Both the position numbers and the translations under genes were made by a program. Positions 6,904 through 12,328 of a stretch of DNA of 20,162 nt are shown here, in pieces. The DNA lies in IMG/VR virus record IMGVR_UViG_3300025674_000516, positions 1-20,162 of that record. One strand, given 5' to 3'. The stretch's first letter is position 1, and every line of letters begins with the position of its first letter. The notes beneath the pieces are model-generated. The model worked only from the letters and a program-made list of their open reading frames with translations, made no database searches and was not told the origin of the DNA. The stretch comes from a virus.

Positions 6904-7449
6904 TTATTTTTGACCAGGGAATGCAGGACGGTTACCTGTAGTAATACCGGACATGGCAACGAGAGTTTCTTTCTTGACTCTCAGGGTTCCGTGCTGATCA
7001 GTGTAAGTTGTAATACCAACCCAACCTACACCAGTTTCATATGCTGTTCCAGATGCACTCTGAGATCCTGTTGTCGAAATACCATAAACAAAGGTGTCCT
7101 TATTACTATTGCGTTGACTGTAATTTGAGTCTGTAATAGTGCTCTTAGGACACTGAGAAATGGTATACACAGTAGATCCCATTCCTGTTTTCAGTCCTGC
7201 AGTAGATCCAATTGTCAATCTATTTGCGCTAGCGATAGAAACAATAACTGCATCACCAAAATATGTTGAAATACCACCAATTGTGGCATCCCTATGACCA
7301 AATCGAATAATGTCACCAACTCTTGCCTCTGTGTGCCCCGCACCAGCAGCACCAAAAGTAGTACCACTACCAGTAACCAATCCTGTAGAATAATTGAGAC
7401 TAACAGTCCCTGCGTTATTCAGATTGTCATTATTGCCCCAAAGTGCCAT
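6904..7449 (-). CDS. Probable virion structural protein, 181 aa
   Basis: Starts MALWGNNDNLNNAGTVSLNY and is rich in Gly, Thr and Ser with short beta-like segments (VTGSGTTFGAAGAGHTEARV, VGWVGITTYTDQHG). It has few charges and no signal peptide. The overall look is that of beta-structured T4-like cyanophage virion proteins, and I recall similar MALWGNND openings annotated as structural. It has its own T4-type late promoter 34 bases upstream (7483-7490), which supports late, virion-related expression. Exact place in the particle (tail, neck or capsid decoration) is unknown. Confidence 0.75.
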   Translation of the reverse strand: MALWGNNDNLNNAGTVSLNYSTGLVTGSGTTFGAAGAGHTEARVGDIIRFGHRDATIGGISTYFGDAVIVSIASANRLTIGSTAGLKTGMGSTVYTISQCPKSTITDSNYSQRNSNKDTFVYGISTTGSQSASGTAYETGVGWVGITTYTDQHGTLRVKKETLVAMSGITTGNRPAFPGQK

Positions 7450-7742: not shown

Positions 7743-8207
7743 TTATTCTTTGTTAGAAACGTATCTCCCTAACTTTTTATCGTAACGTTTGACTTCACCA
7801 GGACGAAGACGATCTCTTGCTTCCCTTGCCTTACCAACAAACTTACCGAATTTCATCTTACGGTCTGCCTTGGCAAACTGTTTCTTCTCCTTGTCATACC
7901 TATCATACTTAGTTGTTTCATTCACATCACCAGAAGTATCTTTCTTATGGAGGCTTTTATAGAGATGCTTATGAAAAGGTTTTGCCTTCTTCATAATCTT
8001 ATCTCTCTGAGAGTAGTCTGCTGCTTCTTTTGCAACTTTCTTCTCAGGAAGTTTCTTGTGCTTGGTTGATGCAAAGTCTTTTACATCACTCTTCTTCATA
8101 TCAGCAGCTGCTTTAGCAGTCTCAGGAGTGGTTGGTGCCATCTCACCTTTTTGAATAGCACGAACTATTCCAAAGAATCGTTGCTGCTTTTTAGATACGG
8201 CAGGCAT
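7743..8207 (-). CDS. DUF3008-like basic protein
   Basis: A 154-aa lysine-rich protein. Its N-terminus MPAVSKKQQRFFGIVRAIQK matches my memory of the DUF3008 pattern found in marine T4-like phages and some bacteria. The rest is low-complexity and basic (KLPEKKVAKEA, KKAKPFHKHLYKSLHKKD), predicted largely disordered. A basic, disordered protein in a virion block could be an internal DNA-binding protein, but this is inference. Its ATG overlaps the TGA of the 553-aa gene (TGATG), implying translational coupling. Confidence 0.8.
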   Translation of the reverse strand: MPAVSKKQQRFFGIVRAIQKGEMAPTTPETAKAAADMKKSDVKDFASTKHKKLPEKKVAKEAADYSQRDKIMKKAKPFHKHLYKSLHKKDTSGDVNETTKYDRYDKEKKQFAKADRKMKFGKFVGKAREARDRLRPGEVKRYDKKLGRYVSNKE

Positions 8208-9868
8208 CAGTCACCTCTATAACGAGAACCAGGACGAGGACCAGTAGCATCGGTCATCTTCTGAGCATCTGTTCTGGTATCCTTTTCACGTTTTACTTTT
8301 TTGATAGCACCAAGTAATTTCGAGTTTGCTGCTCTCTTCTCCTCAGGAGACTTTCTATTGTAATCCCTAGAGATTTTCATCTGCTGATCAACAGACAATT
8401 CTTCTTTAAACTTCTTACCATCTTTCATTCGCTTGACATCATTATCAACTTTTTTATGTAACTCACCCATCTTCTTATCAGTTTCAAGTGCAGCATCAAG
8501 CACACCTTCACCCATCTCAGATTTTACGATGCTTGGACACTCTTTCTTTCCATGAACAGGACAGTCCTTACCCTGTGGATTATGAGCACAATCCATTTCT
8601 TCACCCATCGCTTTCGTGGGTGGTTCAGACTTTTTTACTTTGTTCAACCCCTGCTGTCTTTTCTGTGCGATCATTTTATCAAGCATTGCTTTCTTCTTTT
8701 GAAGTTGCAATTCTTGAGGAGACATTGATGCCTCTTCATCAACCAATTCAACCATCTCAATAATTTTTCCACCAATCTCCTCAACAGCTTCACCCAGTTT
8801 AGGGTTTATTTTTATTTTATTAGAGATCTTTTTTTCTTTAACTGGATTTGAATCAATATCATCGGACATAATTTCAGAGAGATCTTGTCTCCAGTTGGAG
8901 ATATTCTCTTCATTCATTTTTTTCTTTTGATCAACATTCTTTTGCAGTTTCTGAAAAACCTGCATTCTTTCTTCATCAGGATTTTTTTTGTACTGAGGAT
9001 GATCACTCATCTTCATACCACGCTTTTTCTCAAGACGTGCCTTACGCTCAGCAGTTCCTTTCTCAGGATCCATGTCACGAACACCTTCGGACATTTTCTT
9101 TTTGATTGCCTTACCGATTGCCTTACGACGGTTCATCAGATACTTATCAGTACCATCCTTCTTACCGTCATTATTGACATCACCGTCTTCCTTGCCGACA
9201 GGATCAAGTCCTTCTTTTACTCGAACTTTTCTTCCAAGAACAACACCGCCAGAATCCTGGAACTTTCCAGGATACATTTTCTTAGGAGACTTCTTATCTT
9301 TAATAGTAGAAGGTCTCTTTACAGGTTCGCGAGTTGTGATTTGGTTTGGATCTCCAGCCTTGGTTTCCCTAGTAGTTTTGGGATGATCCATATCCCTTTC
9401 ATATTCCATTTTTTCAAGAATTTCTTCAATCTCTTCTGCAGTAAAAAGACCTGATGCTTCAAGTTCTTCCATTTTTGCACCTGACTTGTGTCTAGTTGTG
9501 CCTGCGGAATCAACATAAGTTTCTCTCTCCTTTCTAGGAGATACATAACCAACGCCAGGTACTACACCAGTCTTTCCAGCAGCACGGGCAGCATTTCTTT
9601 CTGCTGCTCTTTGTGCTGCTCTCTTACGATTTCTATCATAAGAACTCATCGCTTCATCAACCTCAACTTCCTCAGAGGACATACTACCTGTTGGACCATC
9701 TCCAAAGTGTGGGTTGCTCATAGAACCCATCTTCTTCATATCTTTACGTGCCTTCTCATTATTTTTCTGACGTTTCTTCATATCAGTCTCAAGATATGAA
9801 TCATCTTTTTTCTCTGCAATCTGTTCTTTATAGACCTTGGAGAGATCTTTCAAATGAATTCCAGACAT
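8207..9868 (-). CDS. 553-aa charged modular protein, probably virion-associated
   Basis: A long Lys/Glu/Met-rich protein with several recognisable modules. The N-terminus is MSGIHLKDLSKVYKEQIAE. A charged helix RKRAAQRAAERNAARAAGK spans 81-99, followed by VPGVGYVSPRKERETYVDS (about 103-121). An EF-hand/dockerin-like loop lies at D230-V-N-N-D-G-K-K-D-G-T-D241, and KINPKLGEAVEEIGGKIIE at about 353-371. A Cys/His cluster lies at C427, H429, C436, H439, C444. Several (I/L)xE tripeptides resemble T4 prohead protease sites. I recall some of these modules in other cyanophage structural proteins. It may be an internal head or scaffold protein; this is not proven. A late-type promoter with one mismatch (9899-9906) lies 31 bases upstream of the start. 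Confidence 0.75.
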   Translation of the reverse strand: MSGIHLKDLSKVYKEQIAEKKDDSYLETDMKKRQKNNEKARKDMKKMGSMSNPHFGDGPTGSMSSEEVEVDEAMSSYDRNRKRAAQRAAERNAARAAGKTGVVPGVGYVSPRKERETYVDSAGTTRHKSGAKMEELEASGLFTAEEIEEILEKMEYERDMDHPKTTRETKAGDPNQITTREPVKRPSTIKDKKSPKKMYPGKFQDSGGVVLGRKVRVKEGLDPVGKEDGDVNNDGKKDGTDKYLMNRRKAIGKAIKKKMSEGVRDMDPEKGTAERKARLEKKRGMKMSDHPQYKKNPDEERMQVFQKLQKNVDQKKKMNEENISNWRQDLSEIMSDDIDSNPVKEKKISNKIKINPKLGEAVEEIGGKIIEMVELVDEEASMSPQELQLQKKKAMLDKMIAQKRQQGLNKVKKSEPPTKAMGEEMDCAHNPQGKDCPVHGKKECPSIVKSEMGEGVLDAALETDKKMGELHKKVDNDVKRMKDGKKFKEELSVDQQMKISRDYNRKSPEEKRAANSKLLGAIKKVKREKDTRTDAQKMTDATGPRPGSRYRGD

Positions 9869-9878
9869 GGTGATACGA

Positions 9879-11105
9879 CTACTTCTTTTTCTTATACTTA
9901 TTTATTAAATTTTTCACACCAACAGTTCCAGTTAGTCTCATCACATACTCACGATGAGCATCAGTTCCTACAAGTCTTTGATCGGAGGGAACACCAGATG
10001 GACCTGGATAATTTACTACAGCTTCCATAACATCACGTATCCAGGACTTAAACATATAGTCCTCTTCTGTTACACAAATAAGATGATTGGTTCCACGTCT
10101 GATAATTTTACCAATCAATCCAGTATTTAAGTTTTCAACAATATCTCCCAAATTAAAGATATTGCCTCTTACATATTCATTGCGAAGACCTTTTGGATCA
10201 CACTTAGGTGCAATCTCCCACATCTCAACAACTTCTTTCTTCTTAGATTTGATTTTCATACCAGAACGAACAGCATCAAACAATGCTTGAGTATCGCCAT
10301 CATTCAGATCTTTTGGTGTTCCACTACGGAATGCTTTGAAGTCCCCATCAACAACTGCTTTTCTCATTTTAGATGCAGACATTCCCTCCACACCCGCAGC
10401 ATCTGCATCTCTTACACCTGCAGAGATAACACGAATATTCTCAAAGTCATAAAGTTCTCCATTATATTTGGTTGCCAGATTCTCAAACTCAGACTGACGA
10501 TCTGAACCTACAATAATATTAACATCTTTATAACCGCCTTCAGATGCAGCGATAAGAACATTGAATATTGATTTCATCTCATCATCATTGACAATGTTCT
10601 CTGCATAATCAGGGAACATTTTCTTCATGAAAGAAATCTTCATATCAGGATCCAATGGATTTTTCTTAGGATCCTGTGAACGTGAAGGATATATTTTAAG
10701 ATCACCACCTTGCGATGCTTTCTTGGCAGCAGCAAGTAACTTACCATGACCTACAGTTGGTGGATTGAAACGACCAAATGCAACAGTCAAAACTTCTGAA
10801 GTCTCTGCACCAGTGTCTTCTTTCTCATCTGCTTTTGGTGTTGTAGCATCAGTCTCTTTTGGTGCAGTCTCCTTAGGTTCTTCTTCAGGTTTTGCCTGCG
10901 TTGATTTTGATTTTGCAGATTTGTCATCTTCTGCTTTTGCTTTTTTCTTACCAACAAACTTTAACTTACCATCTTCAGTAGTCGCAACAAATTTTCCACG
11001 GGAGTTCAACCAACCTCCGTGACCATCACTTACAAGGTTCAGTTTTCTCGCTTGCATACTTGCTTGCGACTGAGCCTCATTCAAAAACTGAAAGAAACTT
11101 TTCAT
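9879..11105 (-). CDS. Nucleotidyltransferase (NMNAT/cytidylyltransferase-like) with KOW-like C-terminal domain
   Basis: A 408-aa protein in four parts. Residues 1-11 (MKSFFQFLNEA) resemble the T4 capsid-targeting sequence MKTYQEFIAEA. Residues 12-50 form a conserved-looking segment (GHGGWLNSRGKFVATTE). A Lys/Glu/Thr-rich linker runs about 52-102. The catalytic domain has the HxGH-type motif at 111-120 (GRFNPPTVGH) and the ISSTxxR-like motif S243-A-S-K-M-R248, so it should transfer a nucleotidyl group, perhaps in NAD metabolism; the substrate is not determined. The C-terminal region (about 310-408) has a KOW/SH3-like core GDIVENLNTGLIGKIIRRG. AAGGA lies 12 bases before the ATG. Catalytic family is fairly sure; packaging is inferred. 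Confidence 0.85.
   Translation of the reverse strand: MKSFFQFLNEAQSQASMQARKLNLVSDGHGGWLNSRGKFVATTEDGKLKFVGKKKAKAEDDKSAKSKSTQAKPEEEPKETAPKETDATTPKADEKEDTGAETSEVLTVAFGRFNPPTVGHGKLLAAAKKASQGGDLKIYPSRSQDPKKNPLDPDMKISFMKKMFPDYAENIVNDDEMKSIFNVLIAASEGGYKDVNIIVGSDRQSEFENLATKYNGELYDFENIRVISAGVRDADAAGVEGMSASKMRKAVVDGDFKAFRSGTPKDLNDGDTQALFDAVRSGMKIKSKKKEVVEMWEIAPKCDPKGLRNEYVRGNIFNLGDIVENLNTGLIGKIIRRGTNHLICVTEEDYMFKSWIRDVMEAVVNYPGPSGVPSDQRLVGTDAHREYVMRLTGTVGVKNLINKYKKKK
9899..9906 (-). promoter_or_regulatory. Late-type promoter with one mismatch (AATAAATA)
   Basis: AATAAATA on the minus strand differs from TATAAATA at the first base. It lies inside the 3' end of the nucleotidyltransferase gene and 31 bases before the 553-aa gene start, a spacing like the other two late promoters here. 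The position is coding, so a chance match is possible. Confidence 0.45.
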
Positions 11106-11141: not shown

Positions 11142-12236
11142 TTATCCCCGATATAATAGTTTAAGCATGGTAAATGCTCCAAGTTTTCCTTTCTGCTTCG
11201 CCTCCCTATATTCAGAGTCGCTCCTAATGGTCATGGTTAAAGTCATTTTTTTATTATTACTACCCATGATATCAATAAACCATTCTTGAACCGAATTGGG
11301 TTTTAAATATGCATTAACAGAAGTTACTGCTGGCAAAAATTCTCTCAAAGGATCAGTTGCACTAGACTCCGCCTTAGCACCAATAGCTTTTACGAGCATC
11401 ATCGGAACTTCTACATCCTTTTTTTCCAATCTAAATTCATCTTCAATCCATGCTTTGGTTGCATTTACGTCGCCGTTTATCATACCAATCAACTTATTTC
11501 TACATATAGTATTCATCCTAACATAGAGTGCTTCAAACGCTAAATTATCATACTTAAATAAGTCAAGAATTTTTGCTTGCAAAATTTTATTAGGAGTTTG
11601 TCTTGAAGTAGATAAAACTAGATAATTAGTTTTATTAACAGACTTAGGAAGACCCGGAATTAAAGAATAAACATTATTCCACAACTCCTCTTTCAATTCT
11701 TCAACTGCTCTAGGATATTTTTTCTTCCAAGCAGGTTTTCTCATAGTGGTTGCCACGTATGAGTTTAATTTTGGTTCTTTAGATTTGGAAGTTCCTGCCT
11801 TCAAGCTAATCCCCATAATTTTGGGATGAACTTTTTTATCTTTAAACATTATAAAAATATCACCCGCATGATTATTGGGAACACCATTTGGTTTTTCTCT
11901 ATATCCCCAAACAACTTTTTCTATTTCTCTTTGATGATTATAATCATAAATCCAATTCAATATACCTACAGCATTTTCTAATTTAGTTTTTTTCATGGCA
12001 GGTCTAATCCGTGCCATTTTCGTAATATATTCTTTTGCAGATTCAATATTACTAGAATTCACAAAAGATTTACTTGCTCCATTAGAAGATAAGTCAACTC
12101 CTTTGATAAACTCTTCTAGTTCATCTGCAGTTCTAGGATGAACACCAGAGTTAAAAGCAAGTGCCGGAAATAATTCGGTTATGGTAGAATTAATTGTGGT
12201 CTGTTCACCACCAGACAAATATGGAAGATCTTCCAT
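11142..12236 (-). CDS. 364-aa protein with possible PD-(D/E)XK nuclease core
   Basis: No family recognised with certainty. Residues 85-148 show a pattern like PD-(D/E)XK nucleases: a helix with E87 (KLENAVGILNWIYDYN), then D126 in NNHAGDIFIMF, then a strand ending S144-L-K146 (IMGISLKAG). The rest is mixed alpha/beta with a Lys-rich region (AWKKKYPRAVEELKEELW) and a C-terminal domain rich in strands (KKMTLTMTIRSDSEYREAK). Coding sequence looks AT-richer than the replication genes. It sits between tRNA-Ala and the virion block, a common place for phage accessory genes. It could be a homing or anti-host/anti-phage nuclease, or a packaging-related protein. ATG at 12236 has only AAAGG 3 bases upstream. 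Confidence 0.75.
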   Translation of the reverse strand: MEDLPYLSGGEQTTINSTITELFPALAFNSGVHPRTADELEEFIKGVDLSSNGASKSFVNSSNIESAKEYITKMARIRPAMKKTKLENAVGILNWIYDYNHQREIEKVVWGYREKPNGVPNNHAGDIFIMFKDKKVHPKIMGISLKAGTSKSKEPKLNSYVATTMRKPAWKKKYPRAVEELKEELWNNVYSLIPGLPKSVNKTNYLVLSTSRQTPNKILQAKILDLFKYDNLAFEALYVRMNTICRNKLIGMINGDVNATKAWIEDEFRLEKKDVEVPMMLVKAIGAKAESSATDPLREFLPAVTSVNAYLKPNSVQEWFIDIMGSNNKKMTLTMTIRSDSEYREAKQKGKLGAFTMLKLLYRG

Positions 12237-12255
12237 TACCTTTTTTAGGTATTTA

Positions 12256-12328
12256 TGGAGTTAAGCGGACTCGAACCGCTGACATCCTGCTTGCAAAGCA
12301 GGCGCTCTACCAACTGAGCTATAACCCC
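12256..12328 (-). tRNA. tRNA-Ala (anticodon UGC)
   Basis: A 73-nt cloverleaf with acceptor GGGGTTA/TAACTCC (one G-U pair), D arm GCTCAGTTGGTAGAGC, anticodon stem CCTGC/GCAGG closing loop TTTGCAA, and anticodon TGC. The T arm is AGCGG-TTCGAGT-CCGCT. The discriminator is A and no CCA is encoded. It stands alone, 12 kb from the other four tRNAs, between the small paralogue genes and the 364-aa gene. Confidence 0.96.

Follow-up and report, generated by a model that had tools for sequence, protein, structure and literature searches.

A T4-type capsid targeting leader on a predicted head-cargo nucleotidyltransferase of marine cyanophages

A nucleotidyltransferase gene of a cyanomyovirus-like contig begins with a leader of the type that targets T4 internal proteins to the capsid. 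We consider it probable that the product is an enzyme carried as cargo in the phage head, which would bind the scaffold, be cut after E10, be injected and act in the host as an adenylyltransferase. Computation here or published work supplies the leader and the pattern of its conservation, the cut site that matches, the fold, and the detection of homologues in virions. The window, by which we mean the whole stretch analysed, is a virus record of 20,162 bases; its gene order is that of a cyanomyovirus near Synechococcus phage S-SM2.

The gene runs from 11105 to 9879 on the minus strand, as do all its features given below, and encodes 408 residues starting MKSFFQFLNEAQSQASMQARKLNLVSDGHGGW. An earlier note on this DNA had called the same frame, 9879-11105, and it stands, with the strand as minus. 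From its N terminus, the protein (9879..11105) consists of the leader, a small module, a linker, an adenylyltransferase-fold domain and an SH3-like C-terminal domain. By profile it belongs to phrog_395, 'cytidyltransferase' (E 2.9e-104), a family named T4-GC190 in S-SM2 and P-SSM2. It is a clear homologue of the members in S-SM1, S-SM2 (79.6% identity), S-SCSM1 (66.5%), S-SZBM1 and S-CREM2, and its neighbourhood is that of S-SM2, with mazG upstream and nrdA/nrdB downstream. With names assigned from the matching order in S-SM2, the contig reads DNA polymerase, UvsX, gp41 helicase, MazG, leader gene, primase, NrdA and NrdB, all on the minus strand.

Residues 1-10, MKSFFQFLNE (11076..11105), form a leader of the T4 IPII/IPIII type. 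To gauge its conservation, homologues were fetched from IMG/VR through peptides outside the leader and through the enzyme domain alone. Among 134 distinct homologues obtained through these other parts of the protein, 131 keep the leader; two of the remaining three are cut by the contig end and one is degenerate. M1, F7 and E10 are invariant, K2, F4 and A11 hardly vary (A11 is present in 95% of homologues), and positions 3, 5, 6 and 9 are free. In the 129 homologues with a standard-length leader, F4 occurs in 121, F7 and E10 in all, and L, I, F or V at position 8 also in all, the last partly by the rule that defines the leader. The codons beneath these residues vary synonymously (position 4, TTC 61/TTT 60; position 7, TTT 71/TTC 58; position 10, GAG 72/GAA 57), and selection therefore acts on the protein. 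The leader also persists where the stretch between it and the enzyme is absent or unrelated: hardly anything separates it from the enzyme in L191, L193, L213 and S-CREM2, and other sequence stands between the two in Sf-CH8 and S-SZBM1. Conservation, codons and the pattern controls described below argue against a chance resemblance, and the earlier reading of the first 11 residues, MKSFFQFLNEA, as a T4-like leader is borne out.

In T4, the ten N-terminal residues of IPIII are enough for packaging, and a mutational map of the capsid targeting sequence assigns residues 4 and 7 to targeting and residues 8 and 10 to processing (PMC9026906). Judged by alignment, the conserved positions of the cyanophage leader mirror this map, and the leader carries the residues that characterise internal proteins with a capsid targeting sequence. 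It shares with IPII and IPIII, and with IPI, the ten-residue plan M-K-x-[YF]-x-x-F-[IL]-x-E|A at the same fixed positions; as in the T4 internal proteins (MKTYQEFIAE|A), the cut-site motif is that of the same protease family and the leader sits on unrelated bodies (PMC3012670, PMC9026906). Unlike those small, basic proteins, the cyanophage body is a 400-residue enzyme with an extra module, and targeting in cyanophages is predicted from sequence. The earlier note had named T4 Alt as an enzyme with this leader. Alt, an ADP-ribosyltransferase, is likewise packaged and is injected, but it is a different enzyme and has a 7-residue propeptide instead of an MKSFFQFLNE-type leader (PMC9026906); the right T4 match is the internal proteins.

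The predicted prohead-protease cut falls between E10 and A11, that is, between 11076 and 11075. FLNE|A11 is the same motif as at the maturation sites of cyanophage capsid proteins and T4 gp23, and an [IL]xE|A site is present. T4 gp23 loses 65 residues (PMC9026906), and its residue 65 is the E of SFLTE65|A. Aligned capsid-protein sites of eight cyanophages, among them GLLTE|A, SFLAE|A, ILTE|A, FLSE|A, MLNE|V, ILTE|T and MIAE|Q, have A, V, T or Q after the E. The (I/L)xE consensus that had been proposed to end at E10 thus holds as a site, LNE|A. We infer from these alignments that cyanophage capsid proteins are probably cut at the aligned position and the leader after E10. Homologues of gp21 and gp22 are encoded by eight cyanophages (S-SM2, S-SCSM1 and six other relatives); the 20-kb contig ends short of that region.

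It is very unlikely, in our estimate, that the leader is a targeting signal that stays uncut, or that the tail or neck, and not the head, carries the protein. Cleavage data were sought in the virion proteome papers and none are given there, and the downstream gene at 6904..7449 (minus strand) encodes a homologue of S-SCSM1 gp277, annotated 'tail fiber protein (virion protein)' (56% over 179 aa). Against this, E10 is invariant and A11 stands at 95%, a pattern that fits a requirement for position 10 in processing (PMC9026906), and the leader motif is that of the capsid-protein site.

Other neighbours on the minus strand also have counterparts among annotated virion proteins. The gene at 8207..9868 is a partial homologue of S-SCSM1 gp280 (37% over 191 aa, E 2e-22), and its product has a repeat-like stretch found too in gp280 and in other cyanophage proteins; the gene at 7743..8207 is an N-terminal homologue of S-SCSM1 gp279 (72% over 57 aa). 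Upstream, a phrog_2496 gene at 11142..12236 lacks the leader and takes the position of the S-SCSM1 virion protein gp282, a positional match only, with no significant BLAST similarity between the two; its product has no Pfam match, and its relatives in the fetched loci are too few to model. Just upstream of its start at 12236 lies a weak T4-late-promoter-like sequence, CATAAATA (12250..12257, minus strand), which could perhaps drive late expression of this gene and the leader gene. HATAAATA is only weakly enriched within 90 nt upstream of leader genes (33% versus 20%), and we set the promoter aside as support for our reading of the leader gene. Elsewhere in the window, 893-1336 encodes a SegE-type GIY-YIG homing endonuclease (PF19835, E 1.1e-54), for whose family the PHROG label 'NAD synthetase' looks wrong.

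Homologues of the enzyme have been reported in purified virions of S-SM1 (PMC3037559), S-SCSM1 (PMC9602691), S-SZBM1 (PMC9146016) and S-CREM2 (PMC10665884); the family members in the last three phages are ORF91, S-SZBM1_140 and ORF154, respectively. Packaging of the family is therefore already known as an observation. The virion proteome papers speculate about its packaging, and no packaging signal is named in the open-access literature searched; there we found no paper naming the signal of this cyanophage family, and 'capsid targeting sequence' and 'cyanophage' occur together only in a T4 review. The earlier prediction of packaging with a T4-like leader is well supported by the key residues, the cut site and the homologues in four virion proteomes; the example of Alt falls.

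The leader also predicts which other proteins are found in virions. Under a wider rule that was fixed after inspection of several genomes, and pooled over S-CREM2, S-SZBM1, S-SCSM1 and S-SM1, 8 of 11 leader ORFs are virion proteins where 2.1 are expected (P 1.3e-4; the S-SM1 ORF total is approximate, and S-SCSM1 virion status comes from notes in its sequence record). By this rule all five S-CREM2 leader ORFs (6, 13, 14, 136 and 154) are in its virion (P 6.5e-4); they include an S-AdoMet lyase and a kinase. A stricter first DNA pattern has exactly two matches in S-CREM2, the S-AdoMet lyase ORF6 and the enzyme ORF154, both in the virion table. Three leader ORFs of S-SZBM1 and S-SCSM1, of 105-165 aa, went undetected in the virion proteomes. 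Left out of the counts was S-CREM2 ORF12, a packaged nuclease-like protein whose leader lies 16 residues in, at a CTG codon, and which would need a CTG start or an internal leader. In the S-AdoMet lyase (L101:3837-5081, minus strand; PF23780, E 2.3e-19), the enzyme directly follows the leader; this member of the published virion proteome is a possible injected anti-restriction enzyme.

These data bear on a simpler explanation, that an abundant protein sticks to purified particles and the leader serves some other end, for example folding or contact with membranes. Some proteome authors have themselves warned that abundant proteins may co-purify (PMC9602691, PMC10665884). We regard this explanation as highly improbable: several groups have detected the protein, in at least four phages, the leader positions fit the T4 map of targeting and processing (PMC9026906), and among unrelated proteins the leader predicts which are present in virions.

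As a DNA pattern, the leader codons ATGAARNNNTWYNNNNNNTWYNTNNNNGAR have 11 matches in nine phage genomes and none when reversed. The three matches in T4 are IPII, IPIII and gp61.1. In IMG/VR, the leader codon pattern occurs in at least 120 stretches, and among the matches listed 123 of 124 lie at gene starts, counted as the beginning of an open frame that is 60 aa or longer or that runs off the contig; a permuted codon pattern occurs in 33 stretches, none of them (0/33) at a gene start. Cyanomyovirus-like genes are present on 115 of the 120 leader contigs among the matches listed. Clustering divides the first 80 leader loci into about 30 mutually dissimilar groups; a GNAT acetyltransferase, DUF6267 and a DPBB lytic-transglycosylase-like protein are among them. 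The leader sits on dozens of unrelated marine-phage proteins. Applied to T4 ORFs of at least 60 aa, the leader rule finds IPII and IPIII only; IPI (MKTFKEF...ITE|A) has a longer leader. In S-PM2 and S-CBWM1, the rule finds no leader ORF. T4 gp61.1 (L411:267-431; NC_000866 18966-19130) is an uncharacterised protein of 54 aa that starts MKTFKEFIKED, with a possible cut after E10, and could be an overlooked internal protein.

Behind the leader lies a module of about 40 residues, which we call SDGHG (residues 14-54, 10944..11066), recognised by HMM and BLAST and modelled with a pLDDT of 77-89. Its HMM was built from 31 seeds of this enzyme family only, replacing models made with two seeds or with S-CREM2 sequences. 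Run against 18,268 ORFs of ten phages, it matched only the enzyme family and two S-CREM2 virion proteins, the kinase ORF14 (two copies, E 1.3e-19) and the nuclease ORF12 (E 3.6e-13). BLAST with the window protein also finds ORF14 and ORF12, with E 4e-7 and 3e-4 in a small set. On a related marine contig, a weaker SDGHG-like module (E 2e-4) lies near the N terminus of an ADP-ribosyltransferase exoenzyme-like protein at L265:9941-10774 (PF03496, E 1.3e-16), a candidate Alt-like protein of one marine phage. The module is followed by a low-complexity linker (residues 55-103, 10797..10943) that is unconserved in the alignment and predicted to be disordered (pLDDT below 50 at 54-101). The protein ends in a beta domain (residues 300-361, 10023..10208), for which the secondary structure of the AlphaFold2 model suggests the name SH3-like; in P-HM2 (PHM2_164) and S-CAM3 (S250808_179), this domain is part of a separate gene.

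These flanking parts could be the point of the protein. On this alternative, the leader, module and SH3-like domain form a core part of the head or bind DNA, and the enzyme domain is a passenger or is degenerating. Three loci, L195 (minus, 2196), L216 (plus, 3793) and L299 (minus, 1004; all coordinates give the frame start), keep leader, module and SH3-like domain and lack the enzyme domain; they may be natural deletions that show the packaging parts. The TxGH motif is lost in five leader-bearing members, L240, L236, L284, L282 and L267. The loss of the catalytic motif or of the enzyme domain in some leader-bearing members suggests that catalysis is perhaps not in every case what the protein is for. 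We nonetheless judge a structural role unlikely, since most homologues keep FGRFNPPTxGH, GxDR and SASKxR, and phages of other clades retain the enzyme as a separate protein of 180-190 aa.

The enzyme also occurs without the leader, in P-HM2, S-CAM3, GAP32, Callisto and L223. The earlier note had held that homologues keeping the enzyme domain but not the first 11 residues would count against packaging. Taken literally, such homologues exist; all belong to distant lineages, and what they show is a modular, added leader, not an unpackaged family. In L223 and L292, a neighbouring DUF6267 protein bears the leader and the enzyme does not, and in S-PM2 the enzyme and DUF6267-like sequence share one frame. 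The gene for DUF6267 (PF19782) often lies immediately upstream of that for the enzyme. DUF6267 proteins have an invariant KxDG motif of the kind known from nucleotidyl-transferring ligases, and they bear the leader at L189:4695-5942, L223:6418-7623, L245:2761-3999, L266:10197-11432 and L292:10076-11266. A DNA ligase is its best PDB match, but with E 0.14 at best, and we do not claim that it is a ligase.

The catalytic domain spans residues of about 104-288 (10242..10796). Its AlphaFold2 model (pLDDT mostly 85-95) matches CoaD (PPAT), NadD and NadM about equally well (VIA-align Z 12.3-13.8), with which it shares the fold and the motifs GRFNPPTxGH and SxSxxR, although identity is only 10-15%. 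Both motifs lie as the earlier note had described them: GRFNPPTVGH, which binds the nucleotide, at residues 111-120 (10746..10775), in columns that are invariant or nearly so, partly by selection of the homologues, and SASKMR at residues 243-248 (10362..10379), where S243 and R248 are invariant. An adenylyltransferase fold with T/HxGH and SxSxxR motifs, as in NMNAT enzymes, is thus present. NCBIfam NMNAT models match 17 and 16 of 40 family members, and PPAT models match 4. For the window protein, no specific NCBIfam model and no curated equivalog profile scores above its cut-off; the only match is the generic TIGR00125 (E 0.0058), below its cut-off. The enzyme is therefore not filed as an NMNAT. 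A PDB sequence search with the enzyme gave nothing significant. In three family members a P-loop kinase follows the enzyme, which recalls the layout of NadR; in L191:11230-12507, the leader is followed by the nucleotidyltransferase and an AAA_33/Zeta-like P-loop kinase.

The chemistry foreseen earlier is retained in part. The fold and weak profiles point to an ATP-using adenylyltransferase, NMNAT- or PPAT-like, and specific support for CTP is lacking. Adenylylation of NMN or NaMN is, on profile and model, somewhat the better bet; a PPAT-like or other adenylylation is a distinctly weaker candidate. Use of CTP, after the cytidylyltransferase name in most records, would be compatible with packaging and is quite unlikely. 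Pfam CTP_transf_like does match 31 of 40 family members, though that model spans adenylyl- and cytidylyltransferases alike; the structural matches among the best 50 rows are CoaD, NadD and NadM, with no cytidylyltransferase, and the specific NCBIfam matches are to NMNAT and PPAT.

The course of events that we favour would begin late in infection, when the leader residues, chiefly F4 and F7, would bind the enzyme to the gp22-type scaffold core of the prohead, a step modelled on the T4 internal-protein leaders. A gp21-type prohead protease would then cut after E10 (FLNE|A), and the DNA-filled head would contain an enzyme of 398 residues. The enzyme would enter the next host cell along with the DNA. 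There it would most likely adenylylate a small nucleotide or cofactor precursor, NMN/NaMN being the favoured substrate and phosphopantetheine a possible one. Accessory roles in packaging or retention may fall to the SDGHG module and the SH3-like domain.

Beyond this gene, we think it reasonably likely that one short T4-type tag is the general means by which marine T4-like phages load injected effectors, drawn from a large set whose members can be exchanged. A second module of about 40 residues would often join the tag, and the tag alone would predict cargo from sequence. The cargo would plausibly include nucleotidyltransferases, S-AdoMet lyase, kinase-like, nuclease-like and acetyltransferase proteins, DUF6267, ADP-ribosyltransferase and many uncharacterised proteins. 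Several groups have found the enzyme in cyanophage particles and left undecided whether it is true cargo; a conserved tag would answer that question, and F4, F7 and E10 are named residues open to mutational test. The T4 capsid targeting sequence would extend from small proteins of an E. coli phage to enzymes of phages of photosynthetic hosts. If this is true, the leader is a sequence rule that lists proteins that abundant ocean viruses may deliver into cells ahead of all phage gene expression.
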